64,000 nucleotides of DNA, taken from the NCBI RefSeq assembly GCF_037996645.1, contig NZ_JBBMXV010000004.1, positions 335,684 through 399,683 of the forward strand, in the 5' to 3' direction. The position numbers and the translations under genes are program-made. Source of the DNA: Halalkalicoccus tibetensis (GTDB lineage: Archaea; Halobacteriota; Halobacteria; Halobacteriales; Halalkalicoccaceae). The notes beneath the pieces are model-generated. The model ran no database searches. It was given only the letters and a program-made list of their open reading frames with translations, and was not told where the DNA came from. This document shows positions 8,504 to 56,168 of the stretch, one piece after another; positions within the stretch are counted from its first letter, which is position 1, and each line of letters starts with the position of its first letter.

Positions 8504-9394
8504 ATGACAGCGACGATCCCGGTAGCCGTCCCCCGCAAAGGTCGGCCGCTGGAGGCGGTGCTCGAACGGCTCGCCGCCCGGATGGACGCGACCGAGGTGG
8601 CCGACGAGATCTGTTCGACGCTCCGGTACGAGAAGGCGATCACGAAGGGCACACAGACGCCCGAACACGGCGTCTACGACCGACTCGCCGAGTACAGCGA
8701 CCTCTCGGACCCGACCCGCCCGGAGTACACCCTGCTTCGCGACGACCGCGAGGGCAACCCCCGGCGGGTGGTCTTCGACAGCCTCACCCTCGAGGACGGC
8801 GACCTCCGGCTCCAGCTGATCGGCCGCGAGGAGCCCTTCCGCGCGCTTCGAACCCACGAGTTCGCGCTGGGCTTCGACAGCGCCGACCTCGTCCTCGAGG
8901 AGGTCGTCGAGCTCCGGCCCGAGCCGGTTTCGACGATCAACGACATCAACGCCCGGATCGACCCCCGCGACACGGACGTGCGCGTCGTCACCGGCCTCGG
9001 CGACACGGTCCACCACACCCTGCTCGGGCGGCCCGACGTCGGCGAGGAGTTCACCCGCGAGTTCCTCGGCGGCTACGAGGGCCCGCTGTGTATCTCGCCG
9101 CGCTACGAGCGGCTCGTCCGGGCGGTCCTCGGCACCGACGTCCTCGAAGGGATCGAGTTCAAGTACCCGACCTCCGGGCGCGAGGAGGAGGCCGACATCG
9201 CCGACGTCGGCCTCGGCGTCTACCTCACCGTCACCGGCTCGACCGCCCGCGAGCACGGCCTCCGGGTGGGCGAGCGCCTCTTCCCCAGCGAGACCGTCCT
9301 CATGGAGAACACCCCCGAGGCCGACCGCGACGCGGTCCGGGACGTGAAGGCGCTGTTCGCCGAGGCGGAGTTCGAGACCGAACTCCGCGTCTGA
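8504..9394 (+). CDS. HisG-like (ATP phosphoribosyltransferase fold) paralogue
   Basis: 296 residues. The N-terminus IPVAVPRKGRPLEAVLERL matches the start of HisG (xxAxPxKGRLxExxLELL) with K12-G13-R14. The middle block RALRTHEFALGFDSADLVLEE lines up with the HisG DI-V--G-ADLGI-G-D strand and helix. The C-terminal ADVGLGVYLTVTGSTAREHG, with TGST at 244-247, matches the HisG phosphate-binding signature. The periplasmic-binding-protein-like fold therefore seems conserved over the full length. Identity to real HisG looks low and an extra block lies at residues 45-100, so it is probably not the histidine enzyme. No his genes surround it. It may bind a nucleotide or sugar phosphate. Confidence 0.6.
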   Translation: MTATIPVAVPRKGRPLEAVLERLAARMDATEVADEICSTLRYEKAITKGTQTPEHGVYDRLAEYSDLSDPTRPEYTLLRDDREGNPRRVVFDSLTLEDGDLRLQLIGREEPFRALRTHEFALGFDSADLVLEEVVELRPEPVSTINDINARIDPRDTDVRVVTGLGDTVHHTLLGRPDVGEEFTREFLGGYEGPLCISPRYERLVRAVLGTDVLEGIEFKYPTSGREEEADIADVGLGVYLTVTGSTAREHGLRVGERLFPSETVLMENTPEADRDAVRDVKALFAEAEFETELRV

Positions 9395-9434: not shown

Positions 9435-9821
9435 CTACTCGCCCTCGTCGGGCGTCCACTCGCCGCCGACGCGGTCGACCCCCATCATCCCCTCGCCGGC
9501 GTGTTCGGTGAAGACGACCTTCATGTTCGGGTCGGGGATCGCCCAGGCGTCGTTCGCGAGCTCCATCACCGCGAGCGCGAACTCGCGCTTCGCCTCGAAC
9601 TCGCGCCCCCCGCGTATCTCGGCGTCCAGCACCAGCGCGGGCTGGTCGGGGTCGGCCCGGCCGATGGAGAGCTCGGCCTCGGTGCGCTCGCGGATCACCA
9701 CCGCGACGTGGTCGGTGCCGGTCTCCATCTGCTCGGCGTAGAGCTCGCGGACGCGGCGGGCGAAGGCGCGCTTCTCGCCGGCGGTCATCGCCGCGCTGGA
9801 GTCGAACTGAAGCAGCGGCAT
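9435..9821 (-). CDS. Tautomerase-superfamily protein
   Basis: 128 residues of the tautomerase/MIF superfamily. The catalytic proline is next to the initiator methionine (MPLLQFDSS), as needed for Pro-1 chemistry after Met removal. The size suits a fused or 5-carboxymethyl-2-hydroxymuconate isomerase-like subunit. Such enzymes interconvert keto and enol forms of 2-oxo acids. It is the last gene of the probable seven-gene operon running down from 17209, only 5 bp behind the FAD/Fe-S dehydrogenase, which makes a 2-oxo acid product. That context suits keto-enol isomerisation of the dehydrogenase product. The substrate is inferred. Confidence 0.75.
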   Translation of the reverse strand: MPLLQFDSSAAMTAGEKRAFARRVRELYAEQMETGTDHVAVVIRERTEAELSIGRADPDQPALVLDAEIRGGREFEAKREFALAVMELANDAWAIPDPNMKVVFTEHAGEGMMGVDRVGGEWTPDEGE

Positions 9822-9826
9822 CGGGA

Positions 9827-12800
9827 TCAGAGCCCCTCCGCGAGCACGCTGATCGGATGGGGTGGTTCCTCGTCGGCGAGGTCCTCGAGCTGGCTCCGAC
9901 AGGAGGCGCCGGGGGCGATGACGCGGTCGCCGTCGCTCTCCTCGACCTGCTCGACGAGGATCGAGCCGATCGCCTCGCTCATCGCGTAGTGGTCGTCTTC
10001 GTAGCCGAAGGAGCCCGCCATCCCACAGCAGCCCGAGTCCAGCGCGTCGACGTCGTAGCCCGCCCGCACGAGTACCGCCGCGGCGTGGACGTCCTTCTTC
10101 ATCGCCTTCTGGTGGCAGTGGCCGTGGTAGATCAACGACCCCTCGCCCTCGGGCACGTCCAGGTCGAGGGCGTTGACGTACTCCATGACGCCGAAGGTGT
10201 TGACCGCGACGCTCTCGACGGCGTCCCGCGGGGTGGAACGACCGCCTTCGCCCGCCCCGCTCGCCCGCCCGAGCAGCTCCCCCACCCGCTCGCGCCAGGA
10301 CTCCGAGAGGGGCTCGTCCTCGTGGCTCGAGTGGTCGCCGACGACCTCCGACTTGCGCTCGTCGCGCCCCGCGTCCTCGCCCGGGATCAGGTCGAGGTAG
10401 TCGTGCTGGAGCATCACCGCGTCGGAGGGCTCGGGGACGACGACGTCCCAGCCCTCCTCGATCCGGGGCGCGAGCGCCGCGACGTTGGTCTCCGCGCGCT
10501 CGCGGGCGAGGTCGAGAAAGCCCTTCGAGTAGGCGGGTCGGCCGCTGTCGACGACGCCCTCGGGGACCCGCACGTGGACCCCCGCGTTCTCGAGGACGCG
10601 CACGGCGTCCCGGCCGACTTCGGGATGGTTGTGGTTCGTGTAGGTATCGGGAAAGAGCAGGACCTTCCGGTCGGCCTCGCTTTCGCTCACCTCCGGGCCC
10701 CGGTCCTCGAACCAGTCGACGAACGTCTCGCCGTGGAACTCCGGCAGCGTGCGCTCGCGGGCGATCCCGATCGTCTTCTCCATCGCGAGGCGGGCGCCCG
10801 GGATCGCGGGCAGCCAGTTCGAGACGGGCGCGGTCGCGCTGCCCAGCTTCGAGAGGGTGTCGATGTTCGCGAACAGCCGTTCGCGGGGGCCGGCGCCGGT
10901 CCGCTGGTGGTGCTCGTGGGTCAGCTCGACCTTCAGCTTCGCCATGTCCACCTCGCTCGGGCAGTCCTTCGCACAGCCCTTACAGCCGATACAGAGGTCC
11001 ATCACCTCGGTGACGAACTCCTCGCTGAAGGCCTCGCCCTCGGGCATGTCGCCGCTCATCGCCTGGCGCAGCGCGTTCGCGCGGCCCCGCGTCGAGGTGA
11101 TCTCCTCCTCGCTCGCCCGGAACGTCGGGCACATCACGCCGCCGGTGGTCTCCTGGGGGCCACGACAGCCGCCACAGCCGTGACAGAGCTCGGCCATCCC
11201 CTGGAAGCCGTTCTCGTTCTCCCAGTTGAGCTCGGGCTCGAAGCCCATCTCGAACTCGTAATCGGGGTCGAACCGCAGGTTCTCGCTCATGTCGAAGTCG
11301 CCACAGACCGAGCCGGGATTGAGCAGCCAGTCGGGATCGAAGGCCGTCTTGAGGTCGCGGAAGACCTCCCACAGGTGCTCGCCGTAGAGCTTCCTGTTCC
11401 ACTGGGTTCTGGCCCTGCCGTCGCCGTGCTCGCCCGAAACCGACCCGCCGAGTCGAGCGACGGCGTCGGTCACCCGATCGGCGATGTCGACCATTCCGTC
11501 GACGCCGTCGACGTCCTTGGTGTTGATCAGCGGGCGGACGTGCAGCACGCCGGGGCCGGCGTGGGCGTAGATGCTCGCGAACGTGCCGTTGTCCTCGAGG
11601 ATCTCCTGGAACTCGCGGGCGTACTCCGGGAGGTGTTCCGGTGGTACGGCACAGTCCTCGATGAAGGAGATGTGTTTCTCGTCGGAGGTCCGCGAGAGCA
11701 GGATCGGCAGCCCGCTCTTTCGCATCTTCCAGAACAGCGCGCGCTCCTCGTGGTCGTGGGCCTCCATCGCCGCCGTCGCGTTGATCGGGGCGTCCGTTCC
11801 GACGGGGTCGTCGCCCGGCTCGCCCTCGCTGTCGGCCTCGGGCATCCGATCCGCCAGCAGGCCCGCGACCTTCTCCATCCCCTCGGGGTCGTCCTCGGCG
11901 TAGAACTCGACGAGCAACACGGAGGAAGCCTCGGGCGGCAGCATCGAGACGACGTCGGCGAACTCCTCGGTCTCGCGGGCCAGATCCAGAAGGACGTCGT
12001 CCATCACCTCGACGGCCGAGGGGTCGTGTTCGAGGATCGGCGCGACGTCCTCCATCGCCTCGATCAGCGTGTCGTAGGTCAACAACGCCATCGCCTTCGT
12101 CTCGGGCACGGGCTCGAGCGAGACCTCCGCCCGTGTGACGATCGCGAGCGTCCCCTCGCTTCCGGCGAGCAGGCGCGCGAGGTTGATCGATCCCTCGCTG
12201 ACGGCACCCTCCTCGTCGGTCGCGCGCTGGACCTCGCGGGCCTCGTCGATCAGCATGTCGAGGTTGTAGCCCGAGACGTTGCGCTTCAGGTCGGGGTAGG
12301 CCTCCTCGACGTTCTCGGCCTCCTCCTCGATGATCCGCTGGACCGCGGCGTGGATCCGCGCCCCGAGGTCTCCTTCCGGGTCGGCCCGCTCGTCGAGCTC
12401 CTCGGGGGTGATCTCGCCGAAGGTGGTGCGGGTGCCGTCCGCGAGCACCGCCTCCACCTCCTCGATGTAGGCGTCGGTCTTGCCGTACTTCAGCGAGTGC
12501 GAGCCCGTCGAGTTGTTGCCGATCGCACCCCCGAGCGCGCTCTTGTCGCCCCACGCGGGGTCGGGCGCGAACTTCAGGTCGTGGGGTGCGAGCGCCTCGT
12601 TGAGGTCGCCCAGGTAGACGCCGGCCTCGGCCGTGGCGCGCTTCGCGTCGGGATCGATCCCCACCACCTCGTCCATGTGGCGGGTGAAGTCGAGCACGAC
12701 CGCCTCGTTGACCGCCTGGCCCGCGAGGCTCGTGCCGCCGCCGCGGGGCAGCACGGGGATCCCGTGCTGCGCACAGTGGCGCATCACCGTCTGGACGTCG

Positions 12801-13027
12801 CGGGTCGAGGTGGGAAAGACCACGCCGATCGGCGTCATCTCGTAGGCGCTGGCGTCGGTCGCGTAGAGCTCCTTCGAGTACTCGTCGAAACGGACGTCGC
12901 CGCCGACGAGCCGCGGGAGCGCCGAGAGCGCCTCCGGAACCGCCTCGTCGTCGCGGGTGTAGTCGTACGTCGCGCGGCCGTCGCGCGCCGGGGGGGTGTC
13001 CGCCATCGGATCCGGGTTCGTCGCCAT
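9827..13027 (-). CDS. Fused FAD-linked/Fe-S 2-hydroxyacid dehydrogenase (GlcD-GlcF type), paralogue 1
   Basis: 1066-residue fusion of a GlcD/D-lactate dehydrogenase-type flavoprotein and a GlcF-type Fe-S protein. It is likely to oxidise D-lactate, glycolate or a related 2-hydroxyacid and pass electrons to the membrane chain. Residues about 50-290 are the FAD-binding PCMH domain (LPRGGGTSLAGQAV, GGAIGNNSTGSHS) and 300-590 the FAD-oxidase C domain. Two cysteine clusters follow: CHGCGGC from about 615, and CIGCKGCAKDCP from 679. The CCG module near residue 1000 carries [12 protein letters not shown]. Compared with the paralogue at 21219, it has about 45 extra residues of charged linker (RDERKSEVVGDHSS) before the CCG motif. 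It sits in the Tct operon, so its substrate may be the acid imported by that transporter. Confidence 0.85.
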   Translation of the reverse strand: MATNPDPMADTPPARDGRATYDYTRDDEAVPEALSALPRLVGGDVRFDEYSKELYATDASAYEMTPIGVVFPTSTRDVQTVMRHCAQHGIPVLPRGGGTSLAGQAVNEAVVLDFTRHMDEVVGIDPDAKRATAEAGVYLGDLNEALAPHDLKFAPDPAWGDKSALGGAIGNNSTGSHSLKYGKTDAYIEEVEAVLADGTRTTFGEITPEELDERADPEGDLGARIHAAVQRIIEEEAENVEEAYPDLKRNVSGYNLDMLIDEAREVQRATDEEGAVSEGSINLARLLAGSEGTLAIVTRAEVSLEPVPETKAMALLTYDTLIEAMEDVAPILEHDPSAVEVMDDVLLDLARETEEFADVVSMLPPEASSVLLVEFYAEDDPEGMEKVAGLLADRMPEADSEGEPGDDPVGTDAPINATAAMEAHDHEERALFWKMRKSGLPILLSRTSDEKHISFIEDCAVPPEHLPEYAREFQEILEDNGTFASIYAHAGPGVLHVRPLINTKDVDGVDGMVDIADRVTDAVARLGGSVSGEHGDGRARTQWNRKLYGEHLWEVFRDLKTAFDPDWLLNPGSVCGDFDMSENLRFDPDYEFEMGFEPELNWENENGFQGMAELCHGCGGCRGPQETTGGVMCPTFRASEEEITSTRGRANALRQAMSGDMPEGEAFSEEFVTEVMDLCIGCKGCAKDCPSEVDMAKLKVELTHEHHQRTGAGPRERLFANIDTLSKLGSATAPVSNWLPAIPGARLAMEKTIGIARERTLPEFHGETFVDWFEDRGPEVSESEADRKVLLFPDTYTNHNHPEVGRDAVRVLENAGVHVRVPEGVVDSGRPAYSKGFLDLARERAETNVAALAPRIEEGWDVVVPEPSDAVMLQHDYLDLIPGEDAGRDERKSEVVGDHSSHEDEPLSESWRERVGELLGRASGAGEGGRSTPRDAVESVAVNTFGVMEYVNALDLDVPEGEGSLIYHGHCHQKAMKKDVHAAAVLVRAGYDVDALDSGCCGMAGSFGYEDDHYAMSEAIGSILVEQVEESDGDRVIAPGASCRSQLEDLADEEPPHPISVLAEGL

Positions 13028-13036
13028 GTCGGGCGT

Positions 13037-13468
13037 TCACCCGCGACGGTCATTACTCTGTGGATCGTTCCCGGCGACCGCGTCGGTCGGCTCCAGCTGG
13101 TGGACCGGGTAGCGCCCGTCGGCGGGCCAGCCCACCGCGACGACCTTGCAGGGCTCCCCGAACGGGTTGTGGATCACGTGGGCGCCCGCCTTCCCCTTCT
13201 CGAAGGCCACCGCCTCGTCGACGCCCATCTCGAAGCCCTCCTCGGCCGTCTCGACGCGGCACCGCCCCTCGACGACGAGAAAGAGCTCTCGCTGGTTCTC
13301 GTGGTAGTGGAAGTGGTTCTGCGAGAGCCGGTCGTCGGGCTCGAGGACCGCGACGTTGAAGTTGAACGTCCCGATCCCGAGTTCCGGGGAGAGCTCCCAG
13401 CGCTCGCCGGGCTTCTCGGGGTTGGTCGCCGCTTTGGACAGTGTGACGTGGTGCCATCCATCAGCCAC
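13037..13468 (-). CDS. Cupin-domain protein
   Basis: 143-residue single-domain cupin. The metal-binding motif 1 is visible as FHYHENQRELFLVVEG (pattern H-x-H with a following Glu), and motif 2 as HVIHNPFGEP. It could be a small dioxygenase, isomerase or ligand sensor; cupins are too varied to say which. It lies 9 bp upstream of the FAD/Fe-S dehydrogenase and 23 bp downstream of the VOC gene in the same operon, so it probably acts on the same substrate. The start at 13468 (MADGWHHVTLS) is supported by the tight spacing. Confidence 0.8.
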   Translation of the reverse strand: MADGWHHVTLSKAATNPEKPGERWELSPELGIGTFNFNVAVLEPDDRLSQNHFHYHENQRELFLVVEGRCRVETAEEGFEMGVDEAVAFEKGKAGAHVIHNPFGEPCKVVAVGWPADGRYPVHQLEPTDAVAGNDPQSNDRRG

Positions 13469-13491
13469 ACCGGGTCCACGGGACCCGTCGG

Positions 13492-13884
13492 CTAATGGGT
13501 TTCCTCGTAGGAGGCGAGCTCGACGAGGTTCCCGTCCGGGTCGCGGACGTAGACCGACCGCATCGGCCCGCGCGCGCCGTACTTCTCGACGGGGCCGTGA
13601 ACGACCTCGACGCCGTGGTCTTCGAGTCGGGCCGTGATCTCCTCCACATCGAGTTCGGAGATCAGACAGAAGTCGCCCGAGCCCGGCGCCGGCGCGCGGG
13701 CGTGGGGATCGAACTCCCCGCCGGCCTCGTGGAGGTTGATCTTCTGGTCCCCGATCTCGAGTGCGGTCCGGTCCTCGGGGCCGAACGTGACGACGGTCGC
13801 GCCGAGGACGTCGCCGTAGAATTCGCAGGTCGCGTCGACGTCCTCAACGGTGAGGACGAGGTGGTCGATGCCGGTGAGCTGCAT
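13492..13884 (-). CDS. VOC-superfamily protein (glyoxalase/dioxygenase fold)
   Basis: 130-residue vicinal-oxygen-chelate protein with two beta-alpha-beta-beta-beta units. The family hallmarks are the opening IDHLVLTVEDVDATCEFY with a metal-binding histidine and the closing VYVRDPDGNLVELASY with the metal-binding glutamate. It could be a glyoxalase-type lyase, an extradiol dioxygenase or a binding protein. It lies between the TctA gene (37 bp) and the cupin gene (23 bp) on the same strand, so it belongs to the organic-acid operon. A specific reaction cannot be assigned from sequence alone. Confidence 0.8.
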   Translation of the reverse strand: MQLTGIDHLVLTVEDVDATCEFYGDVLGATVVTFGPEDRTALEIGDQKINLHEAGGEFDPHARAPAPGSGDFCLISELDVEEITARLEDHGVEVVHGPVEKYGARGPMRSVYVRDPDGNLVELASYEETH

Positions 13885-13921
13885 ACGTGGACCGCGACCC
13901 GAGGAGGGATAGCGCTGTGGG

Positions 13922-15421
13922 TCAGACCCGGTCGATCTTGCGCTCGAGATAGGGCTTGAGGAACGGCCCCACGAGGATGAGGAGGATCAGCACCGAGAGC
14001 AGGAACGACAGCGGGCGGTTGAGCGGGTCGACGAAGATCGCGTAGTCGCCGCCGGAGATCTGCAGCGACCGGAAGAAGTTCTCCTCGGCAATCGGCCCCA
14101 GCACGATCCCGAGGACGAACGCGATCACCGAGTAGTTGTACTGGACCATGTAGAAGCCGAGCACGCCGAGGACGACCACCGCCATCACGTCGAACCAGTT
14201 CTGGTTCAGCGTGTACGCGCCGGCAAAGGAGAGCACGACGACCGCCGGGATGATGACGTTGGTGTCGAGCTCGGTGAGCCGGCTCGCGTACGGGATGACC
14301 GTCAGCCCGACCGCGAGGATCAGGACGTTGCCGAGGAACAGCGAGATGAACAGCGCGTAGGTGATCTGGAGCTGCTCGTCGAACAGCACCGGCCCCGGCT
14401 GGAGGCCGTGCATGAGGATGCCCCCGAGCAACACCGCGGTCGAGCCGCTGCCCGGAATGCCGAACGAAAGGGTCGGGATGAGCGACCCACTCACAGTAGG
14501 GTTGTTCGCCGCCTCGGGGGCGATCACCCCGCGGGGGTCGCCCTCGCCGAACCGGCCGTCCTTCGCGGAGGAGCGGGCTTCCTCCGCGTAGGCGACGAAC
14601 GTCGAGGTCGTCGCGCCCGAGCCGGGGATCATCCCGATCCCCATGCCGATCAGCCCGGACTTGACCGTCGTCTTGGGGTACTTGAACACCGTCCGTACCC
14701 CCTCCTTAATGCTCCCGCCGAGGGAGACGTCGGCCTCGGCGATCTGGGACTTGGCGGCAAGCTTCATCATCTCCGCGAACGCGAACATCCCGATCAGGGC
14801 CGCGACGAAGTCGATCCCGTCATAGAGGCCGAACTGTCCGAACGTGTATCGGGGGCGCGGGCTCAGGATGCCGGTCCCGATCGTCGAGATCATGAAGCCG
14901 AGCGCGCCGGCGACCAGCCCTTTGACGATCGAGCCCTGGGTGACGATCGTGATCAGCGAGATGCCGAGGATCGCGAGCAGGAAGTACTCGGGCGATCCGA
15001 ATGCGAGGACGACCTGGATCAGGACCGGCGAGATCAGGAGGAGGATGATCGCCGCGAGGAAGCCGTTCAGCGCCGAGGCGGTCGTCGCGATCGCCAGCGC
15101 GTTCTTCGCGAGCCCGTTTTTCGACATCGGGTAGCCGTCGAGCGTGGTCGCGGCCGCCGACTCGGTGCCGGGGGCGTTGATCAGAATCGCGGCGATCGAT
15201 CCGCCGAACATCGCGCCGCTGTAGATGGCGATCAGCAGGATCAGCGCCATCGTCGACTCCAGGGGCAGCGTCAGCGGCAGGACGATCGCCATCCCGACGG
15301 GCGAGCCGATGCCCGGAAGCGCCCCGAGGACGATCCCGAGCAACAGCCCGACGGTGAGCCAGAGCAGCGCCTCCGGCCCGATCGCGATCGACAGCCCGTC
15401 GAAGAAGGCGTCGACCGCCAC
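13922..15421 (-). CDS. tctA: Tripartite tricarboxylate transporter large permease TctA
   Basis: 499-residue integral membrane protein, the large permease of a TTT (tripartite tricarboxylate) transporter, driving uptake of citrate or other carboxylates with an ion gradient. About a dozen hydrophobic segments are visible. The family's conserved glycine/proline loops appear as LGALPGIGSPVGM near residue 35 and IPGSGATTSTFVAYAEEA near 265, with TPTLSFGIPGSG-type sequence near 320. Length is standard. The start is 1 bp from the TctB stop, so the two are translationally linked. TctA proteins do not reveal their substrate. The neighbouring tartrate-type dehydrogenase and hydroxyacid oxidase point to a hydroxylated dicarboxylate or similar acid. 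Confidence 0.93.
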   Translation of the reverse strand: MAVDAFFDGLSIAIGPEALLWLTVGLLLGIVLGALPGIGSPVGMAIVLPLTLPLESTMALILLIAIYSGAMFGGSIAAILINAPGTESAAATTLDGYPMSKNGLAKNALAIATTASALNGFLAAIILLLISPVLIQVVLAFGSPEYFLLAILGISLITIVTQGSIVKGLVAGALGFMISTIGTGILSPRPRYTFGQFGLYDGIDFVAALIGMFAFAEMMKLAAKSQIAEADVSLGGSIKEGVRTVFKYPKTTVKSGLIGMGIGMIPGSGATTSTFVAYAEEARSSAKDGRFGEGDPRGVIAPEAANNPTVSGSLIPTLSFGIPGSGSTAVLLGGILMHGLQPGPVLFDEQLQITYALFISLFLGNVLILAVGLTVIPYASRLTELDTNVIIPAVVVLSFAGAYTLNQNWFDVMAVVVLGVLGFYMVQYNYSVIAFVLGIVLGPIAEENFFRSLQISGGDYAIFVDPLNRPLSFLLSVLILLILVGPFLKPYLERKIDRV

Positions 15422-15422
15422 G

Positions 15423-16082
15423 TCAGATCACCCTCGCGCGTACCGCCGCGACGGACCCGGCCAGTTCGGGCGAGACGAACCACAGCGCCTCGAGGACGAA
15501 CGGGAGGAACGGGCTGAAGTCGAAGATCTCACCCTGATCGAACGGGAGGATGAGGAACTCCATGAAGAACCAGACGATGGCAGTCGCGAACACCGCCAGC
15601 CCCAGCCCGACGTACCACCTGATGCGGAACCAGGTCGTGTACGCCCAGACGAACGGCAGGGTCACGAACAGGAAGCCGGCCGCCCAGCCGGCGGCGAGAT
15701 ACAACACCGACATCACGACCATGAACACGGTGTCGTTGACCCCGTAGCCGTACTCCTCGCCCAGTCTCGGCGGGCGCTCCTCGGTCGTCGTCTCCTCTTC
15801 CTCGACCGTCTCCTCCTGATCGTCGAGTATCGAGTCGTCCGCGGTCGTGACCGACATGTCCTCTGCGACGAACGTCCGGAGCGGGCCGGGGAGGTAGTCC
15901 TGGATCAGCAGCAACACGCAGCCGACGAACACGACCCCGGCCATCATCTGCGGGAAGACGCGCGCGTCGGCCGGGTAGTCCTGCACGATCGGTTCGATCA
16001 GGAAGACCGCGCTGAGCCCGATCAGAGCCAACAGCATCACCTGCTCCGCCGTTACCCCATCGAACCGCTCCTTTGTCGACAT
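15423..16082 (-). CDS. tctB: Tripartite tricarboxylate transporter small permease TctB
   Basis: 219-residue small membrane subunit of the TTT transporter. It has four hydrophobic segments, two near the N-terminus (LLALIGLSAVFLIEPIV, VVFVGCVLLLIQDYL) and two after a central acidic loop (VEEEETTTEERPP, roughly residues 85-105). TctB pairs with TctA, and its exact role is not well defined. The acidic loop is longer than in most bacterial TctB, an adaptation seen in other halophile membrane proteins. It sits between tctC (41 bp) and tctA (1 bp) in one operon. Confidence 0.88.
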   Translation of the reverse strand: MSTKERFDGVTAEQVMLLALIGLSAVFLIEPIVQDYPADARVFPQMMAGVVFVGCVLLLIQDYLPGPLRTFVAEDMSVTTADDSILDDQEETVEEEETTTEERPPRLGEEYGYGVNDTVFMVVMSVLYLAAGWAAGFLFVTLPFVWAYTTWFRIRWYVGLGLAVFATAIVWFFMEFLILPFDQGEIFDFSPFLPFVLEALWFVSPELAGSVAAVRARVI

Positions 16083-16123
16083 TGTTGATGTAAGTGAGAT
16101 GGACCGGTCGATGCCGGCGCTGC

Positions 16124-17209
16124 TCAGTTGTGCTCCTCGATGAGCTCGATCACGTCGAACTCCTCGTAGGAGTCGAACGCCTCCTCGACGATCTCCTCAG
16201 CCCGCTCGGGCCCCTCGTGGTAGACCGGATTGCCCGTCTCGTCGGACCACTCCTGGGTCCGGTCGTCCTCGACGGCCTCCTCGAAGGCGTCGGAGAGCCA
16301 CTCGTTTCGGCCCTCGGGGGTGCCCGGGGGCGTGTAGACGCCGCGGAACAGCCCGCCGACGAAGTCCATCTCGTCGCCCTCGACCTCGTCGACCGCCTCG
16401 TCGATGCCCGGGATGTCGGGATACACTTCGGTCCCCCCGCTGAGGAACGAGACGACCGGGAACGCGTTGCCGGCCTCGACCGTCGAGCGCGTCCCCGCGT
16501 CGGTCCCGATCCCACAGGGGACCTCGCCGCTCGCGACCGCCTCGGCGACCGGCCCCGTCCCCGTGTACTGGGGACGTTCCTCCCAGTCCCAGAACTCGTA
16601 CTCGTATCTCGCGAGCAGCGTGATGATGTCCTGCGGGCTGCCGGGCTCCTGGATGCCGACCGAGGACATCTCGCCGGCCTCGAACAGGTCGAGGACGTCC
16701 TGGAACGAGTCGACCTGGTCCTCCCACTCCTCGTTGACGATCAGACACCACGCCGACTCGCCGAACACACAGACGCCCTCGGGATCCCGGATGTCGAACC
16801 CGGGGTCGTCGAGCAGCTGCGGGGCGACCTCCAGCGGCGTCGCGCTCCCGAGGATCGTATGGCCGTCGGTGTCGGCACCCATCAGGTCGCCGTAGCCGTT
16901 GAGCCCGCCGGCGCCCGGCACGTTGTCGATCTGGATGTTCTCGCCGACGGAGTCCGTCAGCGCCTCGACGATCCCGCGCGCGTAGACATCGGTACCGCCC
17001 CCCTGGTCGTAGGGGACGATATAGCGGATGTTCTGTGAGGCTTCCCAGTCCTCGTCCTCGTCCTCGCCACCCCCATCGTCGTCGGCCAGACAGCCGGCGA
17101 GGGTCGCTACCGATCCCGCGCCGGCCAACTGGAGAAACCGGCGTCGTCCCGGCCGTACCGTGCTCCTTGTCTGTTCGCCCGCCGTCGGTTCGTGCTGTCG
17201 TTCGCTCAT
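16124..17209 (-). CDS. tctC: TctC-type periplasmic-binding lipoprotein of the TTT transporter
   Basis: 361-residue extracellular solute-binding protein. The N-terminus has a twin-arginine signal (RRRF at 22-25) and a lipobox ending LAGC with the lipidated cysteine at C40, followed by an acidic tether DDDGGGEDEDED. The mature part has the TctC/BugT fold hallmarks IRYIVPYDQGGGTDVYAR and NVPGAGGLNGYGDLMGA, which bind the carboxylates of the ligand. I chose the ATG at 17209 because it directly precedes the signal peptide. It is the first gene of the probable operon tctC-tctB-tctA-VOC-cupin-FAD/Fe-S-tautomerase. Confidence 0.92.
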   Translation of the reverse strand: MSERQHEPTAGEQTRSTVRPGRRRFLQLAGAGSVATLAGCLADDDGGGEDEDEDWEASQNIRYIVPYDQGGGTDVYARGIVEALTDSVGENIQIDNVPGAGGLNGYGDLMGADTDGHTILGSATPLEVAPQLLDDPGFDIRDPEGVCVFGESAWCLIVNEEWEDQVDSFQDVLDLFEAGEMSSVGIQEPGSPQDIITLLARYEYEFWDWEERPQYTGTGPVAEAVASGEVPCGIGTDAGTRSTVEAGNAFPVVSFLSGGTEVYPDIPGIDEAVDEVEGDEMDFVGGLFRGVYTPPGTPEGRNEWLSDAFEEAVEDDRTQEWSDETGNPVYHEGPERAEEIVEEAFDSYEEFDVIELIEEHN

Positions 17210-17465: not shown

Positions 17466-17906
17466 ATGGTGATCGTCGCAGCGATCGACAGAAGCGATAG
17501 ATCGAACGCCATCGTTCGGGAGGCAGCCAGGCTGGGCGAGGCGTTCGACGAGCCCGTCGAGGTCGTTCACGTCCTCACGCGCGAGGAGTTCGTCTCCCTC
17601 GAACGGACGAACGTCAGCGAGACCGGCGAGGCGGTGCCCGTCGAGGGGGTCGTCGAGACCGCCGAGGGGATCGCCGAGGAGGCGATCGGCCGGGCCGGCG
17701 TTACGGCGACCGCCGTGGGCCTCCTCGGCGATCCGGCCGATGAGATCGTCGAGCACGCCCACGATCGCGACGCCCGGTACGTCGTCGTCGCCGGGCGGAA
17801 ACGCTCCCCGGTCGGGAAGGCGCTGTTCGGCAGCGTCGTCCAGTCCGTGCTGCTGGGTGCGGAGTGTCCGGTCGTCTCGCTGCGCACCGAGGCGGACGAG
17901 GACTAG
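17466..17906 (+). CDS. Universal stress protein (UspA family)
   Basis: 146-residue single-domain Usp with the nucleotide-binding alpha/beta fold. It opens VIVAAIDRSDRSNAIVREA and closes with the ATP-binding-type motif AGRKRSPVGKALFGSVVQSV, that is G-x2-x9-G-S/T. Haloarchaea carry many Usp genes whose individual roles are unknown. It is divergent from the tct operon and its last 4 bp (CTAG, 17903-17906) are shared with the stop codon of the convergent dehydrogenase gene. I chose the ATG at 17466, 22-30 bp after a TATA box. Confidence 0.88.
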   Translation: MVIVAAIDRSDRSNAIVREAARLGEAFDEPVEVVHVLTREEFVSLERTNVSETGEAVPVEGVVETAEGIAEEAIGRAGVTATAVGLLGDPADEIVEHAHDRDARYVVVAGRKRSPVGKALFGSVVQSVLLGAECPVVSLRTEADED

Positions 17907-18958
17907 AGCCGTTCTGAGAGCGCGTCGACCATTTCTTCGGTTCCTGCCGACCCACCGAGGTCCGGCGGCGTCGGTGCCGAATCGTCGGCCAGCACCTCCC
18001 GAACTACTTCCCAGAGGTCCTCCGAGACCCCCTCCTCGCCGACGTTCTCGAACAGCATCGCCCCCGAGAGCACCGTCGCGATCGGATTGGCGACCCCCTC
18101 GCCGGTGATGTCGGGAGCGCTTCCGTGGACCGGCTCGAACATCGAGGGGTACTCGCCCGAGCGGTTGACGTTTCCGGAGGGTGCGAGGCCCATGCTGCCC
18201 GTGACGATCGCGCCGATGTCGGTCAGGATGTCCCCGAAGAGGTTCGAGGCGACGACCACGTCGAACTCCTCGGGCCGGCGGATGAAGTCCATCGACGCGG
18301 CGTCGACCAGCAGGCTCTCGACCTCGACGTCGGGGTAGTCCTCGCGGACCTCTTCTACTAACTCGTCCCAGAACACCATGCTGTAGGCCTGGGCGTTCGA
18401 CTTGGTGATGCTCGTGAGGTGGCCCTCGCGTTCCTGAGCGGCCTCGAATGCCGCCCGGAGGATCGCCTCGGTTCCCTGGCGGGTGAACACCGAGGTCTGG
18501 ATCGCGATCTCGTGGTCGAAGCCGACGTGTTCGCGCCCGCCGACGTCGGAGTACTCGCCCTCGGTGTTCTCGCGGAAGACGACGAAGTCGACGTCGCCGC
18601 CCTCGTAGCCCGCAAGCGGGCTCTCGACGCCCTCGAAGAGGATCGACGGGCGCTCGCAGACCTGCTGGTTGAACTCCTTGCGGATGGGCAGGAGCAGGCC
18701 GTGGAGGGTGACGTGGTCGGGGACCTCCGGATGGCCGACGGCACCCAGGAGGATTGCGTCGCTTTTCTCCAGTCGATCGAGCGCGTCGTCGGGCATCATC
18801 GCGCCCTCATCGAGGTAGCGGTCGCTGCCCCAGTCGTATTCGGTGAACTCTACCTCGACGCCGTGGCTCTCCGCGACCTCCTCGAACAGCGGCAGGGTCG
18901 CCTCGACGACTTCCGGCCCGATCCCGTCGCCGGGGATCGTGGCGATCTCGTAAGACAT
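17903..18958 (-). CDS. Tartrate/D-malate dehydrogenase-type member of the isopropylmalate dehydrogenase family
   Basis: 351-residue NAD(P)-dependent beta-decarboxylating dehydrogenase. The start ATIPGDGIGPEV, the substrate loop LLPIRKEFNQQVCERPS, the motif VVFRENTEGEYSDVGG and the end PVHGSAPDITG are typical. The RENTEGEYSDVGGR form and the VGHPEVPDHVTLHGLLLPIR loop fit the tartrate dehydrogenase/D-malate dehydrogenase branch better than isocitrate or leucine-pathway enzymes. It would turn D-malate or tartrate into pyruvate- or glycerate-level products. Its place next to a TTT transporter supports organic-acid catabolism. LeuB activity cannot be excluded. A TATA-like CTTAATCC lies about 25-30 bp upstream. 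Confidence 0.8.
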   Translation of the reverse strand: MSYEIATIPGDGIGPEVVEATLPLFEEVAESHGVEVEFTEYDWGSDRYLDEGAMMPDDALDRLEKSDAILLGAVGHPEVPDHVTLHGLLLPIRKEFNQQVCERPSILFEGVESPLAGYEGGDVDFVVFRENTEGEYSDVGGREHVGFDHEIAIQTSVFTRQGTEAILRAAFEAAQEREGHLTSITKSNAQAYSMVFWDELVEEVREDYPDVEVESLLVDAASMDFIRRPEEFDVVVASNLFGDILTDIGAIVTGSMGLAPSGNVNRSGEYPSMFEPVHGSAPDITGEGVANPIATVLSGAMLFENVGEEGVSEDLWEVVREVLADDSAPTPPDLGGSAGTEEMVDALSERL

Positions 18959-19040: not shown

Positions 19041-19188
19041 GGGCGGTCGCCATTCCCGGCGACCGCCCGAGCGGGGCGGGGAAAGGCTGGCGTCCCGAGC
19101 GAGCGGTTCTGACCTGAACCGCTCGCAATGCGGCCTGGTGGAAATGAAAAGGGCGAGCGAGGAACGCCAGTTCCGAGCGAGGGCTTTC
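19041..19188 (+). repeat. Structured 148-bp element, copy B (candidate ncRNA or leader)
   Basis: Matches the element at 484-631 in the same total length and internal spacing. Stem 1 is GGGCGGTCGCC/GGCGACCGCCC (19041-19051/19058-19068) with a 6-nt loop. The 30-nt linker again contains GGCGGGGAAAGGCTGG. Stem 2 is GCGAGCGGTTC/GAACCGCTCGC (19099-19109/19116-19126), where the G-C pair replaces the A-T pair of copy A. The 31-nt block 19127-19157 is nearly identical to copy A. Stem 3 is GGAAC/GTTCC around GCCA, flanked by CGA and GAG that can form tandem G-A pairs. It ends 39 nt before the crotonase start, in sense orientation, with a T-rich stretch (GGTTTTTC) between. Confidence 0.75.
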
Positions 19189-19227
19189 TTGAGGAAGGTT
19201 TTTCAACGGGCCATGCGGTGTACTGCC

Positions 19228-20010
19228 ATGGCAAGCCACACGGCCTACGAGAGCATCAGCGTCGACGTCGAGGACCGGGTCGCCATGATCGAGTTCCACC
19301 GCCCTGAGGTGTACAACGCGCTGAACGACGCGGTGATGCTCGACCTCTCCAGGGCCTTCGACGAGATCCAACTCGACAGGGAGATCGACGCGGTCGTCGT
19401 CACCGGCGAGGGCGAGGACGCCTTCTCTGCTGGCGCCGACATCACCGAGTACGCCGGCCCTGCGGAGGAACACGCCCACCAGGAGGACCGCCAGGAGCTG
19501 TTCTACGAGATGTACCGGAAACCCCTCGAGTGCCACGCGCCCGTGATCGCGAAGGTCAACGGGTACTGTGTGGGTGGCGGGCTGATCTTCGCGATGTTCT
19601 GTGACATGCGCGTCGCCGTCGAAGGGGCGAAGTTCGGCGTGCCGACCGCGAACATCGGCCAGATCCCCACCGGAGGATCGAACAAGCGCGCGATCGAGCT
19701 CGTCGGGGAGGCGAAGGCGAAGGAGATCGTCTTCACCGCGGGGTTCATCGACGCCGCGGAGGCCGAACGGATCGGCCTGGTCAACCACGCTGTCCCGCGC
19801 GAGGAGCTCGATTCGACGGTCGAGGGGATCGTCGAGGGCATCCAGAGTACGGGTCGAAAGGCCGTGAAGAACTCCAAGCGCGCGCTCAACTACGCCGCGG
19901 AGGCGCCCGACGCCGAGACCGCCCGCGAGTTCGAGGCCGAGCTCTGGTGGGAGCAGTTCGCCAGCGACGAACGGCGCGAGCTGGTCGACGAGTTCAACGA
20001 GGGTGAGTGA
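19228..20010 (+). CDS. Enoyl-CoA hydratase/isomerase (crotonase) family protein lacking both canonical glutamates
   Basis: 260 residues with the crotonase fold: N-terminal substrate motif FHRPEVYNALND and oxyanion-hole strand FSAGADITEY. In classical enoyl-CoA hydratase the two catalytic glutamates lie in GGGCELAMMCD and PEILLGTIPGAGG. Here the same places read GGGLIFAMFCD and PTANIGQIPTGG, so neither glutamate is present. The enzyme is therefore probably not a simple hydratase; crotonase relatives include lyases, decarboxylases, thioesterases and isomerases. It is followed 2 bp later by a CaiB-type CoA-transferase, which would make its CoA substrate. The ATG at 19228 is preferred over the one at 19213 by position relative to a TATA-like TTTTTCAA. 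Confidence 0.8.
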   Translation: MASHTAYESISVDVEDRVAMIEFHRPEVYNALNDAVMLDLSRAFDEIQLDREIDAVVVTGEGEDAFSAGADITEYAGPAEEHAHQEDRQELFYEMYRKPLECHAPVIAKVNGYCVGGGLIFAMFCDMRVAVEGAKFGVPTANIGQIPTGGSNKRAIELVGEAKAKEIVFTAGFIDAAEAERIGLVNHAVPREELDSTVEGIVEGIQSTGRKAVKNSKRALNYAAEAPDAETAREFEAELWWEQFASDERRELVDEFNEGE

Positions 20011-20012
20011 CC

Positions 20013-21218
20013 ATGGCCGGGAACCGGGGTCCGCTCTCGGGAGTTTCGGTCGTCGAGATGACCGCCCACCGCGCGGGTCCGTTCTGTGGCGCGCTGCTCG
20101 CGGACATGGGCGCGGAGGTCGTGAAGATCGAACGCCCCGGCGTCGGCGACCCCGCGCGCTCCCAGGGCGTCGGCCCCGAGGGCAAATCGGGCTACTTCAT
20201 GGCCAATAATAGAAACAAGAAGTCGGTGACGCTCGATCTCAAGAGCGAGGCGGGCGTCGAGGCCGCCCGGCCCCTGCTGGAGGCGACCGACGTCTTCGTC
20301 GAAAATTTTGGATATGGTGTCACCGACAAGCTCGGCATCGGCTACGAGGATCTCCGCGAACGCAATCCCGAGCTCGTCTACGCGAGCATCAAGGGCTATG
20401 GCGAGAGCGGGCCGTATAAGGAAAAGCCGGGCCTCGACCTGATCCTCCAGGCCGAGGGCGGGATCATGAGCGTCACCGGGCCCGAGGGCGGCCAGCCCGT
20501 GAAGGTCGGGCAGGCGATCGGCGACCTGACGACGGGGATGTTCGCGGCGATGGGCGTGCTCGCCAGGCTCTACGAACGCGAACGCGTCGACGAGAGGAGC
20601 GACGAGTTCGTCGGGAAGTTCGACGTCGGGCTGTTCGACTCCATCGTGACGCTCATGAACGAGTACCTGACCGAGTACTCGATGGACGGATCGGTTCCGG
20701 GCCCGCAGGGAACGAGCCACCAGACGCTCGTGCCCTACCAGCGCTTCGAGACCTCGAATGGGGCGCTCGTCACGGGCGTCCCGAGCGACGACCGCTGGGA
20801 CGACTTTGCCGAGCTGCTGGGCCGCGAGGAGCTCCTCGAATACCCGACCAACGACGACCGCCAGGAGCACGCCGAGGAGGTACTGGAGATCATCGAGGCG
20901 GAGTTCGAGATGGAGAGCACGGAGCACTGGCTCGACGCGCTCACGGAGTACGGCTTTCCCTGCGGGCCGATCAACGACGTCGAGGGCGTCGTCGAGCACG
21001 AACAGACCGCGGCGCGCGACCTGACGATCCCCCACGAGGACCCCGACTGGGGCGAGTGTCTGCTGCCGGGCCACCCGATCGACTTCGCGGGCTACGAGCC
21101 CGAGATCCGCGAGCCGGCGCCGCGGCTCGGCGAGCACACCGAGGAGGTCTTCGAGGACGTTGCGGGCGACCAGACGACGCTGGAGGAGTGGACCGCGGGC
21201 GGGGCGTTCGGCGACTGA
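20013..21218 (+). CDS. CaiB/BaiF-type (class III) CoA-transferase 1
   Basis: About 401 residues. Class III CoA-transferases move CoA from one acid to another through an aspartyl-CoA intermediate. The opening SGVSVVEMTAHRAGPFCGALLADMG, the motif VVKIERPGVGD and the region VGQAIGDLTTGMFAAMG, holding the likely catalytic aspartate, fit the family. The ATG at 20013 has a GGTGA ribosome-binding-like sequence 7 nt upstream. A GTG at 20007 overlapping the crotonase stop is the alternative. With the preceding crotonase it forms a two-gene unit, the same pairing as CaiD/CaiB of carnitine metabolism. The acid is unknown. The stop abuts the stop of the convergent FAD/Fe-S gene. Confidence 0.87.
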   Translation: MAGNRGPLSGVSVVEMTAHRAGPFCGALLADMGAEVVKIERPGVGDPARSQGVGPEGKSGYFMANNRNKKSVTLDLKSEAGVEAARPLLEATDVFVENFGYGVTDKLGIGYEDLRERNPELVYASIKGYGESGPYKEKPGLDLILQAEGGIMSVTGPEGGQPVKVGQAIGDLTTGMFAAMGVLARLYERERVDERSDEFVGKFDVGLFDSIVTLMNEYLTEYSMDGSVPGPQGTSHQTLVPYQRFETSNGALVTGVPSDDRWDDFAELLGREELLEYPTNDDRQEHAEEVLEIIEAEFEMESTEHWLDALTEYGFPCGPINDVEGVVEHEQTAARDLTIPHEDPDWGECLLPGHPIDFAGYEPEIREPAPRLGEHTEEVFEDVAGDQTTLEEWTAGGAFGD

Positions 21219-24200
21219 TCAGACCAACGCCGCTTCGAGCTTCCTGACCGGATGGGGCGGCTTTTCTCCATACTCGTCGCCGATCTGGCTGCGACACGAC
21301 GAGCCGGGAGCGACGACGCTTTCTCCAGTGCTCTCCTCGATCTGTCCGAAGAGGATCGAGCCGACCGCCTGGCTCATCGAGTAGTGTTCGGCCTCGTAGC
21401 CGAACGAGCCGGCCATCCCACAGCAGCCCGAATCGAGCGGATCGACCCGGTAGCCGGCTCGTCTGAGCACGCCGACGGTGTGGTGGTCCTTCTTGACCGC
21501 CTTCTGGTGGCAGTGGCCGTGATACGTGAGCGACTCGTCGAGCGCGCCGAAGCGCATCGCCTCGTCGAGGCGGAACCGATCGACGTACTCCATGACGCCG
21601 TAGGTGTTCTCGGCGATCCGCTCGACTGCGTCACCTGAAAGGAGGTCCAGGTAGTCGAGCTGGAACATCACCGCATCCGAGGGCTCGACGACGACCACGT
21701 CCCAGCCCGCGTTGACGTCGGGTGCGAGCGCGGTGACGTTGCGGTCGGCCTTCTCCTTCGCGAGGTCGATCAGCCCCTTCGAGTGGGCGGGCCGGCCGCT
21801 GCCGGTCACACCTTCGGGAATCCTCACGTGGACGTTCGCGGCTTCGAGCACGCGGATCGCGGCCTTCCCCGCCTTCGTGTTGTTGTGGTCGGTGAACGTA
21901 TCGGGAAAGAGGAGGACCCTCCGGTCGGCCTCCGTTTCGCTCACCTGCGGGCCGCGTTTCTCGTACCACTCGGTGAGCGTCTCGGGCTCGAAGGCCGGCA
22001 GGGTGCGCTCGCGGGCGATCCCCAGCACCTTCTCGGTGACGAGCCCAGAGCCGGGAAGCGAGCTCGCGAGGTTCGAGACCGGCGCGGTCGCGCTCCCGAG
22101 GTCCGAGAGCCAGTCGATCCGCGCGAAGACGCGCGATCGGAGGTCGACCCCGTGGCGCTTCAGGTACTCGTGTTCGACCTCGACCTTCATCTTCGCCATG
22201 TCGACCTCGGAGGGACAGTCCCGTGCACAGCCCTTACAGCCCACACAGAGGTCCATCACCTCGTGCATGAACTCGACGTCGAACTGCTCTTCCTCAGGGA
22301 GGTCGCCGCTCATCGCCTGGCGCAGCATGTTCCCCCGGCCCCGCGTGCTCGTGATCTCCTCCTGGGAGGCCCGATACGTGGGACACATCACGCCGCCCGC
22401 GCCGTCCTGGCTGGTGCGACAGCCGCCACAGCCGTGACAGAGCTCGGCCATCCCCTGAAAGCCGTTCTCGTTCTCCCAGTTGAGCTCGGGATCGAAGCCC
22501 GCCTCGAACTCGTAGTCGGGCCCGAAGCGGAGGTTCTCGCTCATGTCGAAGTCCCCACAGACGGAGCCCGGATTCAAGAGCCAGTCGGGGTCGAACGCCG
22601 TCTTGAGGTCGCGAAAGACCTCCCAGAGGTGCTCGCCGTAGAGCTTCCTGTTCCATTGGGTTCTGGCCCTGCCGTCGCCGTGCTCGCCCGAGACCGACCC
22701 GCCGTATTTCACCGCGAGGTCGGTCGCCGCGTCCGAGATCGAGACCATCGTCTCGACACCCTCGGCGGTCTTGGTGTCGATCAGCGGGCGGACGTGCATA
22801 CAGCCCGGACCGGCGTGAGCGTAGAAGCTCCCGAACGTGTCGTGCTCCTCGAAGACCTCTTGGAAGTCGGCGGTGTACTCCGGGAGGTGTTCGGGCGGGA
22901 TCGCGACGTCCTCGATGAAGGCGATGTGTTTCTCGTCGCCGGTTCGCGAGAGGAGGATCGGCGTCGAGGCTTTCCGCATCTTCCAGAACTCCTTTCGGGT
23001 CTCCTCGTCGTAGGCCTCGTAGCCGTCGAAGGCGATCTCGCCGACCCGATCCTCTAGCAGCCCCTCGACCTTCTCGCGGCGCTCCTCGTCGGAGTCGGCG
23101 TAGAACTCGACCAGCAGGAACGTGTCCGTCTCGTCGGGCAGGATCCCGATCACGTCCTTGAACTCGTCGAGCCCGCGCGCGAGGTCGACGAGCACGCCGT
23201 CGAGCACCTCGAGGGCGGCGGGCTCGTGTTCGAGGATCGGGCCGACGTCCTCCATCGCCTCGAGTAGGCTGTGGTAGGTGAGCAGTCCGATCGATTTGGT
23301 CTCGGGGATCGGCTCCAGGCTCACCTCGGCCTCGGTGACGATGGCGAGGGTGCCCTCGCTGCCGACGAGCAGGCGTGCGAGGTTGACGACGCCCGCTTCG
23401 GTACTTCCCTCCCCACTACTCGCGGTTACACCGCTCGTGTCCTCCGAGGCGCGTTGCGCCTCGCTTGCCTCCTCGACCAGCACGTCGAGGTTGTAGCCCG
23501 AGACGTTGCGCTTCATGCTCGGGTAGCGCTCGGCGACGGCGTCGCTCTCCTCGTCGATGATCCGCACCACTTCGGCGTAGATTCGCTCGATCAGCTCGCC
23601 GTCGGGATCGGACCGCTCGCGGAGCTCGTCAATCCCGATCTCGCCGAAGGTGTGGACCGACCCGTCCGAGAGAACGGCCTCGCACTCCTCGACGTAGGCG
23701 TCGGTCTTCCCGTACAGAAGCGAGTGTGCGCCGGTCGTGTTGTTGCCGATCGCACCCCCCAAGGCGCTGCGGTCGGCCGTGGAGGGGTCGGGCGCGAACT
23801 TGATCCCCTCGGGTTCGAGCGTGCGGTTGAGCTCGCCCAGCGTGACCCCCGTCTGGGCGCGTGCGCGAATCGCGTCGGGGTCCACGTCGGTGATCCCGTT
23901 CATGTACCGCGAGAGGTCGAGCACGACCGCCTCGTTGACCGCCTGGCCCGCGAGGCTCGTGCCGCCGCCCCGCGGGAGCACGGGGATCTCGCGTCCGGCA
24001 CAGTAGGTCATCACCGCGGCGATGTCCTCCGTCGAGGTCGGGAACACCACGCCGATGGGCGTGACCTCGTAGGCGCTGGCGTCGGTCGCGTACAGCTCCC
24101 TGGAGTACTCGTCGAAGCGGACGTCGCCCTCGACGCGCGCCTCGAGATCCGAGACGAGGTCGGGTCGCTCGACGTCGCCGTTCGTGTAGTCGTAGTTCGC

Positions 24201-24242: not shown

Positions 24243-24329
24243 TGTGAACTGTGTCTCGTTGTGGTCCTCGCCGCGTTCCGTCCGGCGTCCGCTCCGGTGG
24301 CGCCGGTCCGATCTCGAACGTGAAGTGGT

Positions 24330-27310: not shown

Positions 27311-27427
27311 CTACCCCATATGCCGTCCGACGATGTGATAAGAGTTACCAATTCTGTCAGTCCGGTGGGGATCCGGCCCGCGGCGCGTTCCGAAACGTTC
27401 AACCTGGGTTGTGACACAGTGACGCAC

Positions 27428-29740: not shown

Positions 29741-31993
<2,253 letters not shown>

Positions 31994-32109
31994 ACCGGGG
32001 ACTCGGTACGCGAAGTGAAAAACCACCCGACACACCGATCACGTATCGGACAGAACCACCCCGCATTAGCGACCGTTTGGGAACGGCACCGTGGAAAATC
32101 GGAACGAAG

Positions 32110-34359: not shown

Positions 34360-34411
34360 ACCTGACCGTCCACGGATACGAGTAAAAAGGTATCGACGGA
34401 GGCGGGTTACG

Positions 34412-34433: not shown

Positions 34434-34476
34434 AATGCATGAAAACACCCATGTCGTTGGGGACGAACCACACGGT

Positions 34477-37175: not shown

Positions 37176-37190
37176 GGGGGGGGACCACCC

Positions 37191-38945: not shown

Positions 38946-38980
38946 GCCCGATCACCGATCTCCCTAATCCTCATGATCAT

Positions 38981-56159: not shown

Positions 56160-56168
56160 GCGACTGAA

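Follow-up and report, generated by a model that had tools for sequence, protein, structure and literature searches.

We analysed a 64,000-nucleotide stretch (the window) of contig NZ_JBBMXV010000004.1 from Halalkalicoccus tibetensis, a haloarchaeon with a 3.6-Mb genome, and within it a minus-strand run of seven genes (9435-17209) that begins with a complete tripartite tricarboxylate transporter (TTT). This operon forms a variable border of a larger gene island that is conserved in haloarchaea. In the reading that we tentatively favour, the island breaks down a small hydroxylated acid with two or three carboxyl groups (C4-C6), which the operon takes up and begins to oxidise; tartrate or D-malate would be the best single guesses. 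The genes of the operon, in order from tctC, are:

16124-17209, minus strand: tctC, TTT solute receptor with a putative Tat-type (twin-arginine translocation) lipoprotein signal (PF03401, 30.9 against 27 bits)
15423-16082, minus strand: tctB, small TTT membrane subunit (PF07331, 30.9 against 29.1 bits)
13922-15421, minus strand: tctA, large TTT membrane subunit (PF01970, 447.6 against 28.9 bits)
13492-13884, minus strand: VOC protein of the STM3117/GLOD5 branch, lineage-variable (Pfam Glyoxalase, 63.4 against 20.6 bits)
13037-13468, minus strand: single-domain metal-type cupin (PF07883 Cupin_2, 38.1 against 27.2 bits)
9827-13027, minus strand: FAD/iron-sulfur (FAD/Fe-S) D-2-hydroxy-acid-type dehydrogenase, copy 1, a GlcD-like and GlpC-like fusion (Pfam domains)
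9435-9821, minus strand: tautomerase-superfamily protein with Pro right after the start Met, lineage-variable (PF01361, 31.8 against 22 bits)

All seven open reading frames (ORFs) are open and in frame, and each product was recognised by Pfam above the gathering score. The intergenic gaps, from tctC-tctB down to FAD/Fe-S-tautomerase, are 41, 1, 37, 23, 9 and 5 bp; 6/6 neighbour pairs within the operon lie on one strand and 41 bp or less apart, against 6/43 pairs in the rest of the window, in a count based on a mechanical ORF pick (n = 50 genes, some of the ORFs doubtful). TATA-like stretches were read by eye within 250 bp upstream of tctC. Synteny of the operon was also detected in Halalkalicoccus paucihalophilus (contig NZ_LTAZ01000005.1), and because the order tctCBA-(VOC)-cupin-FAD/Fe-S is repeated in congeners, chance adjacency is excluded. 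A seven-gene operon with gaps of 1-41 bp, as proposed in an earlier sequence-only reading of this DNA, is thus borne out by intact ORFs, measured spacing and repeated gene order. Next to the operon, a conserved haloarchaeal protein (8504-9394) is syntenic in Halalkalicoccus; it matches no Pfam family at E 1e-5.

Beyond tctC lie the following genes:

17466-17906, plus strand: universal stress protein (USP), divergent from tctC (PF00582, 77.4 bits)
17903-18958, minus strand: tartrate/D-malate-type decarboxylating dehydrogenase (TDH; TIGR02089, 466.4 bits)
19138-20010, plus strand, real start probably 19228: crotonase homologue (ECH) without the two catalytic Glu (PF00378, 194.7 against 27 bits)
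20007-21218, plus strand: class III CoA-transferase CaiB1, overlapping ECH by 4 bp (PF02515, 386 bits)
21219-24314, minus strand: FAD/Fe-S dehydrogenase copy 2, 63% identical to copy 1 (Pfam domains)
24367-25626, minus strand: second class III CoA-transferase, CaiB2 (PF02515, 408.9 bits)
25679-27289, minus strand: thiamine pyrophosphate (TPP) enzyme, family NF004807/PRK06154 (863.5 against 607 bits)
27320-28363, plus strand: haloarchaeal NAD(P) D-2-hydroxyacid dehydrogenase, ddh (NF041369, 502.9 against 400 bits)

A sample of the class, 292 haloarchaeal genomes, was searched with TctA, and up to five candidates per genome were scored. Seventy-one places in 46 genomes reached E 1e-150, among which 16, our own included, were at least 74% identical (at least 73% by tblastn, the level reached by 15 orthologues within the 291 other genomes), while the next was 62%. 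These 16 orthologous loci span the families coded f1, f3, f4 and f5; they are related by descent, with six genomes of the own genus among them, and do not represent 16 independent events. Partner genes were counted within about 20 kb of each locus, and the first 20 of the 55 non-orthologous TctA places, including the two other TctA genes of our own genome that reach this E-value limit, served as the control. TDH, ECH and CaiB1 were each present at 16/16 orthologous loci and FAD/Fe-S at 15/16, the 16th (genome G278) carrying FAD/Fe-S in the adjoining stretch L077, where its TPP gene is also located. The cupin was found at 13/16 loci, VOC at 7/16 and the tautomerase at 3/16; CaiB2 and the TPP enzyme were found at at least 7/16 and at least 5/16, which are lower bounds since the stretches of our own and several other genomes of the genus stop before or inside these genes. 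Around the 20 control TctA genes, each of these partners was found at 0/20. TDH, CaiB1, ECH and FAD/Fe-S are constant partners of the transporter, and VOC and the tautomerase are add-ons, whose counts rule out a single fixed pathway made of the seven genes. The USP gene was also present at 16/16 orthologous loci (60-81% identity), but USP relatives of 46-56% identity were found near 13/20 control TTT loci (L109-L125) as well, so it is a general TTT companion. Because this opposite-strand gene sits between TDH and tctC, TDH is a neighbour and not a member of the operon.

The form of the operon varies with the lineage. It is tctCBA-(VOC)-cupin-FAD/Fe-S-(tautomerase) in the own genus, tctCBA-cupin-FAD/Fe-S-acetate-CoA-ligase-like in the family relative G256, and tctCBA-cupin-...-FAD/Fe-S in Natronococcus and Natrialba. 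In G201 (same genus) and G256, a mandelate-racemase-superfamily gene lies between the USP gene and tctC; among solved structures with a name, a galactonate dehydratase comes closest to it, and it misses the NCBIfam cut-offs.

The sequence-only reading had linked uptake of an acid to oxidation of a 2-hydroxy group and had pointed to a tartrate/D-malate-type dehydrogenase nearby. Both parts are supported, with TDH belonging to the transporter (16/16 against 0/20). It had also put keto-enol isomerisation and further cleavage into the core of the pathway, and neither is supported in that place: the tautomerase accompanies 3/16 transporters, and VOC, at 7/16, falls in the STM3117/GLOD5 branch and is no established ring-cleaving dioxygenase. 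Its list of partners was incomplete, since it overlooked the more constant CaiB1 and ECH pair and the second FAD/Fe-S paralogue, as well as the TPP enzyme and the second CoA-transferase further out. Our literature search, outside which subscription papers mostly fell, found no paper that describes the seven-gene or island set in haloarchaea and none that names the substrate of a haloarchaeal TTT.

The transporter is a complete TTT, with TctA, TctB and TctC all above the Pfam gathering scores and adjacent in the order C-B-A. TctC starts with a twin-arginine pair and a lipobox, both kept throughout a 20-row alignment; on this reading of the sequence by eye, its N-terminus may direct export. According to the accessible text of one review, TTTs have been named for citrate, sulfolactate, amino acids, terephthalate and others, and homologues of TctB and TctC are absent from archaeal sequences, a statement that this review of 2018 repeats (PMC5812351). 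Current annotation of haloarchaea names all three subunits. The available parts of other papers describe a TTT specific for alginate oligosaccharides (PMC13390454), TTTs of two nanohaloarchaeal strains as likely citrate/isocitrate carriers (PMC10266531), and a TTT receptor with no assigned function close to an itaconate cluster (PMC12290011). The operon has the same three subunits as the bacterial TTTs (TctCBA for citrate, SlcHFG for sulfolactate, and the alginate-oligosaccharide TTT), and its transporter genes adjoin catabolic genes, as bacterial ones adjoin those for their own substrate in the accessible text of PMC5812351 and PMC13390454. It differs from them in its archaeal host, its putative Tat-type lipoprotein receptor and its partner enzymes.

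The crotonase homologue belongs to the crotonase superfamily fold by its ECH_1 domain (PF00378), yet the columns of the catalytic glutamates, which we take to be rat Glu144 and Glu164, hold Ile/Val and Thr/Val in 41/41 alignment rows (7 of the 41 repeat a gene held under two loci), where the alignment with 5z7r shows Glu. Because both residues are replaced, the usual hydration of enoyl-CoA is not expected of ECH, and an ordinary enoyl-CoA hydratase is ruled out. ECH of at least 61% identity was detected in 24 genomes, with CaiB1 close to it in 22; 16 of the 24 are the orthologous TctA loci, four (L131-L134) are loci with a distant TTT, and two (G063 and G131) carry it with a mandelate-racemase-type gene, CaiB1 and CaiB2. 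In L131-L134, whose tctA is 32-35% identical to ours, ECH, CaiB1 and CaiB2 are present at 4/4 loci, FAD/Fe-S at 3/4 and TDH at 1/4 (in L132, where it scores 457.5 against 470.4 bits with TIGR02089). The branch without Glu also includes versions of 46-54% identity in L137-L142, apart from island genes. The closest NCBIfam model to CaiB1 is succinyl-CoA:mesaconate CoA-transferase (280.9 against 700 bits). CaiB1 is of class III like this enzyme of the Haloarcula methylaspartate cycle but lies far below its cut-off, and its partner is a crotonase homologue, unlike that of the Haloarcula enzyme, which is presumably a MaoC-type hydratase.

The closest solved structure to TDH is the tartrate dehydrogenase/decarboxylase 3flk, which we take to be from Pseudomonas (E 4.3e-100, residues 2-350 of 351). 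TDH thus aligns with 3flk almost end to end, yet it falls 4 bits short of TIGR02089, and unlike the 3flk system it is paired with a CoA-transferase/crotonase module and a TTT. The solved structures nearest to the TPP enzyme are mixed (BbmA, glyoxylate carboligase and acetolactate synthase), and two bacterial plasmid loci of this family share no common pathway, one of them lying near a TTT and 2-hydroxy-acid oxidases.

FAD/Fe-S copy 1 carries FAD_binding_4 (PF01565), FAD-oxidase_C (PF02913), Fer4_8 (PF13183) and CCG (PF02754) above gathering in a single chain, so that by its domains it falls within the broad definition of FAD/Fe-S 2-hydroxy-acid dehydrogenases. It has the same four domains as YdiJ (D-2-hydroxyglutarate dehydrogenase) and the GlcD/GlpC-type enzymes but misses the curated cut-offs, scoring 492.3 bits with the YdiJ model NF049975 (copy 2, 514.9; cut-off 1350) and staying below those of GlcD and GlpC as well. 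Copies 1 and 2 are each 47-48% identical to a third copy near a lactate permease. In a 30-row tree, whose root and long lactate branch (copy 3) are uncertain, copy 1 falls into a clade of the Halalkalicoccus family (8 rows, support 100/99), while copy 2 groups with TTT/TPP/ddh-linked copies of other families (19 rows, 96/95). By this grouping, the operon seems to contain a second copy peculiar to its lineage, whereas the neighbour at 21219-24314 appears to be the version shared widely. A lactate cluster at 34974-42241 holds a LUD/Fe-S protein, a lactate permease and the third paralogue.

The three remaining genes of the operon are small. The VOC protein matches 3huh (E 1.1e-36), 3zw5 (6e-35) and 3hnq over almost its full length, which places it close to the STM3117/GLOD5 family, from which it differs in adjoining a TTT. 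Metal-dependent cupins carry the ligand set His-x-His-x4-Glu ... His, and the putative ligands H54, H56, E61 and H97 of the window cupin are invariant in 20 rows. Its AF2 model (pLDDT 77) shows a plain monocupin fold, with 3i7d as the best match (Z 15.4, root-mean-square deviation 2.2, 121 aligned), whose name, sugar phosphate isomerase, is annotation only. Cupin relatives without a TTT lie beside TRAP-type transporters or directly after an MmgE/PrpD gene. Homologues of the tautomerase occur in 103/292 haloarchaeal genomes and, by coordinates, at this locus in only 3 of those 103; the protein is below the cut-offs for 2-hydroxymuconate tautomerase (TIGR00013, 21.7 against 56.9 bits) and DmpI (29.9 against 70), and a PDB search with it returned nothing significant (best E 0.09).

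The choice of substrate class rests mainly on islands without a TTT. In Halorussus, Haladaptatus and Halomarina, plasmids carry relatives of TDH, CaiB1, ECH, CaiB2 and the cupin without a TTT; the companions there, pooled over records of which none has them all, are MmgE/PrpD genes, a mandelate-racemase-type gene, TcuA (450.9 bits, cut-off 369), a phosphonoacetate-hydrolase-like gene, MaoC, Fe-ADH, and ABC or MFS transporters. Malate synthase is a further companion in TTT-less islands. The substrates of such families are mostly hydroxy-acids or di/tricarboxylates, and therefore a hydroxy-di/tricarboxylate is the class that we favour. The locus of Natronococcus occultus has an extra malate synthase, a D-2-hydroxyacid dehydrogenase and a DUF4147/MOFRL gene, the last closest to glycerate-2-kinase models though below their cut-offs, and this set fits a route from tartrate to glycerate. 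These extra genes and the kinship of TDH with 3flk make tartrate or D-malate the best single guess. At two loci (L068:14637-16483 and L143:22146-23932) the cupin gene overlaps the end of MmgE/PrpD and TcuA comes next, possibly a small tricarballylate-type operon. Phosphonoacetate-hydrolase-like genes were found in L068, L143, L148, L130 and L056 (three of them scanned, 213-242 against 408 bits), and some islands with such a gene also hold one of the phosphoenolpyruvate-mutase/methylisocitrate-lyase family.

Gene content, tight spacing, partner constancy and the loss of the catalytic Glu were observed, and from families, domains and closest relatives we infer each chemical step. TctC, to judge by its family, would bind the acid as a lipoprotein on the outer face, and TctAB would import it. 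The FAD/Fe-S enzyme, from its domains, would convert the D-2-hydroxy group to a 2-oxo group and pass electrons to the quinone pool. TDH, from its own promoter, would oxidise and decarboxylate a malate- or tartrate-type acid, as its closest relative suggests. CaiB1 would turn a carboxylate into a CoA ester, which the Glu-less crotonase might then rearrange, decarboxylate or cleave. Reactive oxo/enol intermediates could perhaps be handled by the cupin, joined in some lineages by VOC and the tautomerase.

Several observations weigh against a hydroxylated di- or tricarboxylate, or against tartrate in particular. A pure tartrate route needs neither CoA-transferase nor crotonase, yet both are the most constant partners. 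TDH is under the curated TIGR02089 cut-off (466.4 against 470.4 bits), and enzymes of its type also accept D-malate and 3-alkylmalates. The sole DUF4147 match of our own genome is on another contig. A FAD/Fe-S relative in Haloarcula hispanica adjoins a lactate permease; it shares 61% identity with each of copies 1 and 2, against 50% with copy 3. A monocarboxylate is therefore a conceivable substrate for copies 1 and 2, and FAD/Fe-S alone is no pointer to a dicarboxylate. The AlphaFold model of TctC (pLDDT 49.1) is too poor for a reading of the pocket. At a fifth distant-TTT locus (L144), FAD/Fe-S, TPP and ddh are present, and ECH, CaiB1 and TDH are not in its stretch; in the ECH genomes G220 and G080, CaiB1, TDH and a TTT are not in the displayed part of the stretch. 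Some islands carry the phosphonoacetate-hydrolase-like gene, a thiolase and a zinc-type quinone reductase, which fit other acids.

A possible but doubtful extension is that haloarchaea use an undescribed CoA-dependent route for hydroxy-dicarboxylates, in which a class III CoA-transferase makes the ester and the Glu-less crotonase performs a decarboxylation, a retro-aldol cleavage or an isomerisation, alongside TDH-type and quinone-linked D-2-hydroxy-acid dehydrogenases; the importer would, by lineage, be this TTT, a distant TTT, or an ABC or MFS transporter.

An unlikely alternative is a branched or unsaturated C5-C6 dicarboxylate (of the itaconate, mesaconate, citramalate, 3-methylmalate or methylsuccinate type). 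The principal route would then run through CaiB1 and the crotonase, and the substrate of TDH would be a 3-alkylmalate. The best NCBIfam relative of CaiB1 points this way, as do a RipB/Ich-like hydratase in L129 (187.1 against 340 bits), MmgE/PrpD and PrpB-like genes in related islands, and the STM3117 branch of VOC, given that a Pseudomonas itaconate cluster holds a glyoxalase-family gene in the available part of PMC12290011. A CitE-type lyase (42695-43642) would also suit it, but this gene lies about 21 kb from CaiB1 outside the conserved set and reaches 154.7 against 375 bits with RipC, so that the itaconate degradation set (Ict/Ich/Ccl) is not assembled in the window. The crotonase lacks the hydratase Glu, and no MaoC-type hydratase was seen among the labelled or read genes of the TTT islands or the Pfam-scanned proteins of the window, a scan that did not take in every gene.

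A role of the operon in the use of D-lactate, glycolate or some other 2-hydroxy acid with one carboxyl group, as a side arm of the lactate cluster, is improbable. Speaking for it are the permease (PF02652, 331.8 bits), the LUD/Fe-S protein and the third FAD/Fe-S paralogue, which lie about 18 kb or more away, and the Haloarcula hispanica relative, closer to copies 1 and 2 than to the lactate-linked copy. Our own lactate-linked paralogue, however, is distant from copies 1 and 2 both in identity and in the tree, on its long and unsure branch, and to our knowledge lactate use needs neither TDH nor CoA-transferases. A sugar acid or uronate-derived acid, with a KdgF-like cupin and the mandelate-racemase-type enzyme as aldonate/aldarate dehydratase, is likewise improbable. 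The cupin model resembles the KdgF structures 5fpx and 5fq0 (Z 12.6 and 12.5) within a long list of generic cupins, but KdgF is not the top match. The mandelate-racemase-superfamily gene is present at 2/16 TTT loci, and some islands have carbohydrate-type ABC transporters next to the cupin, whereas an aldolase, a kinase or a uronate isomerase was not seen as a constant partner; we know of no uronate route with TDH or CoA-transferases. The alginate-oligosaccharide-specific TTT, in the available part of its description (PMC13390454), is a precedent on the transport side. Hydroxylated aromatic acids, which the sequence-only reading had included among the candidate substrates, found little support, and ring cleavage was rejected as weak, since VOC falls in the STM3117/GLOD5 branch and scores with extradiol dioxygenase models stay far below cut-off.

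Elsewhere in the window, two malic-enzyme and phosphotransacetylase fusion genes, close paralogues, stand in tandem on the minus strand (29741-34900), the upstream one, recognised by reading alone, within ORF 32110-34974. A betaine-type catabolic cluster (48260-57850) comprises a Rieske oxygenase (best NCBIfam match GbcA, under the cut-off), a DAO/GcvT fusion, a PALP enzyme, a BCCT transporter, a second DAO enzyme and an IclR regulator. UxuA-like, epimerase-family, GFO/IDH and xylose-isomerase-like proteins at 57965-62734 and just past the window end form a possible sugar-acid cluster, with which an MR/MLE (mandelate racemase/muconate-lactonizing enzyme) match spans the right edge of the window (G000:C4:399534).

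Returning to the island as a whole, complete three-part TTTs exist in archaea, contrary to the absence of TctB and TctC repeated in the 2018 review. One transporter lineage and a near-invariant enzyme set make a bounded unit, whose main interest is the invariant pair of CoA-transferase and odd crotonase. Ligand and enzyme assays on it could name the substrate of a haloarchaeal TTT and give a function to a crotonase branch that is no normal hydratase.

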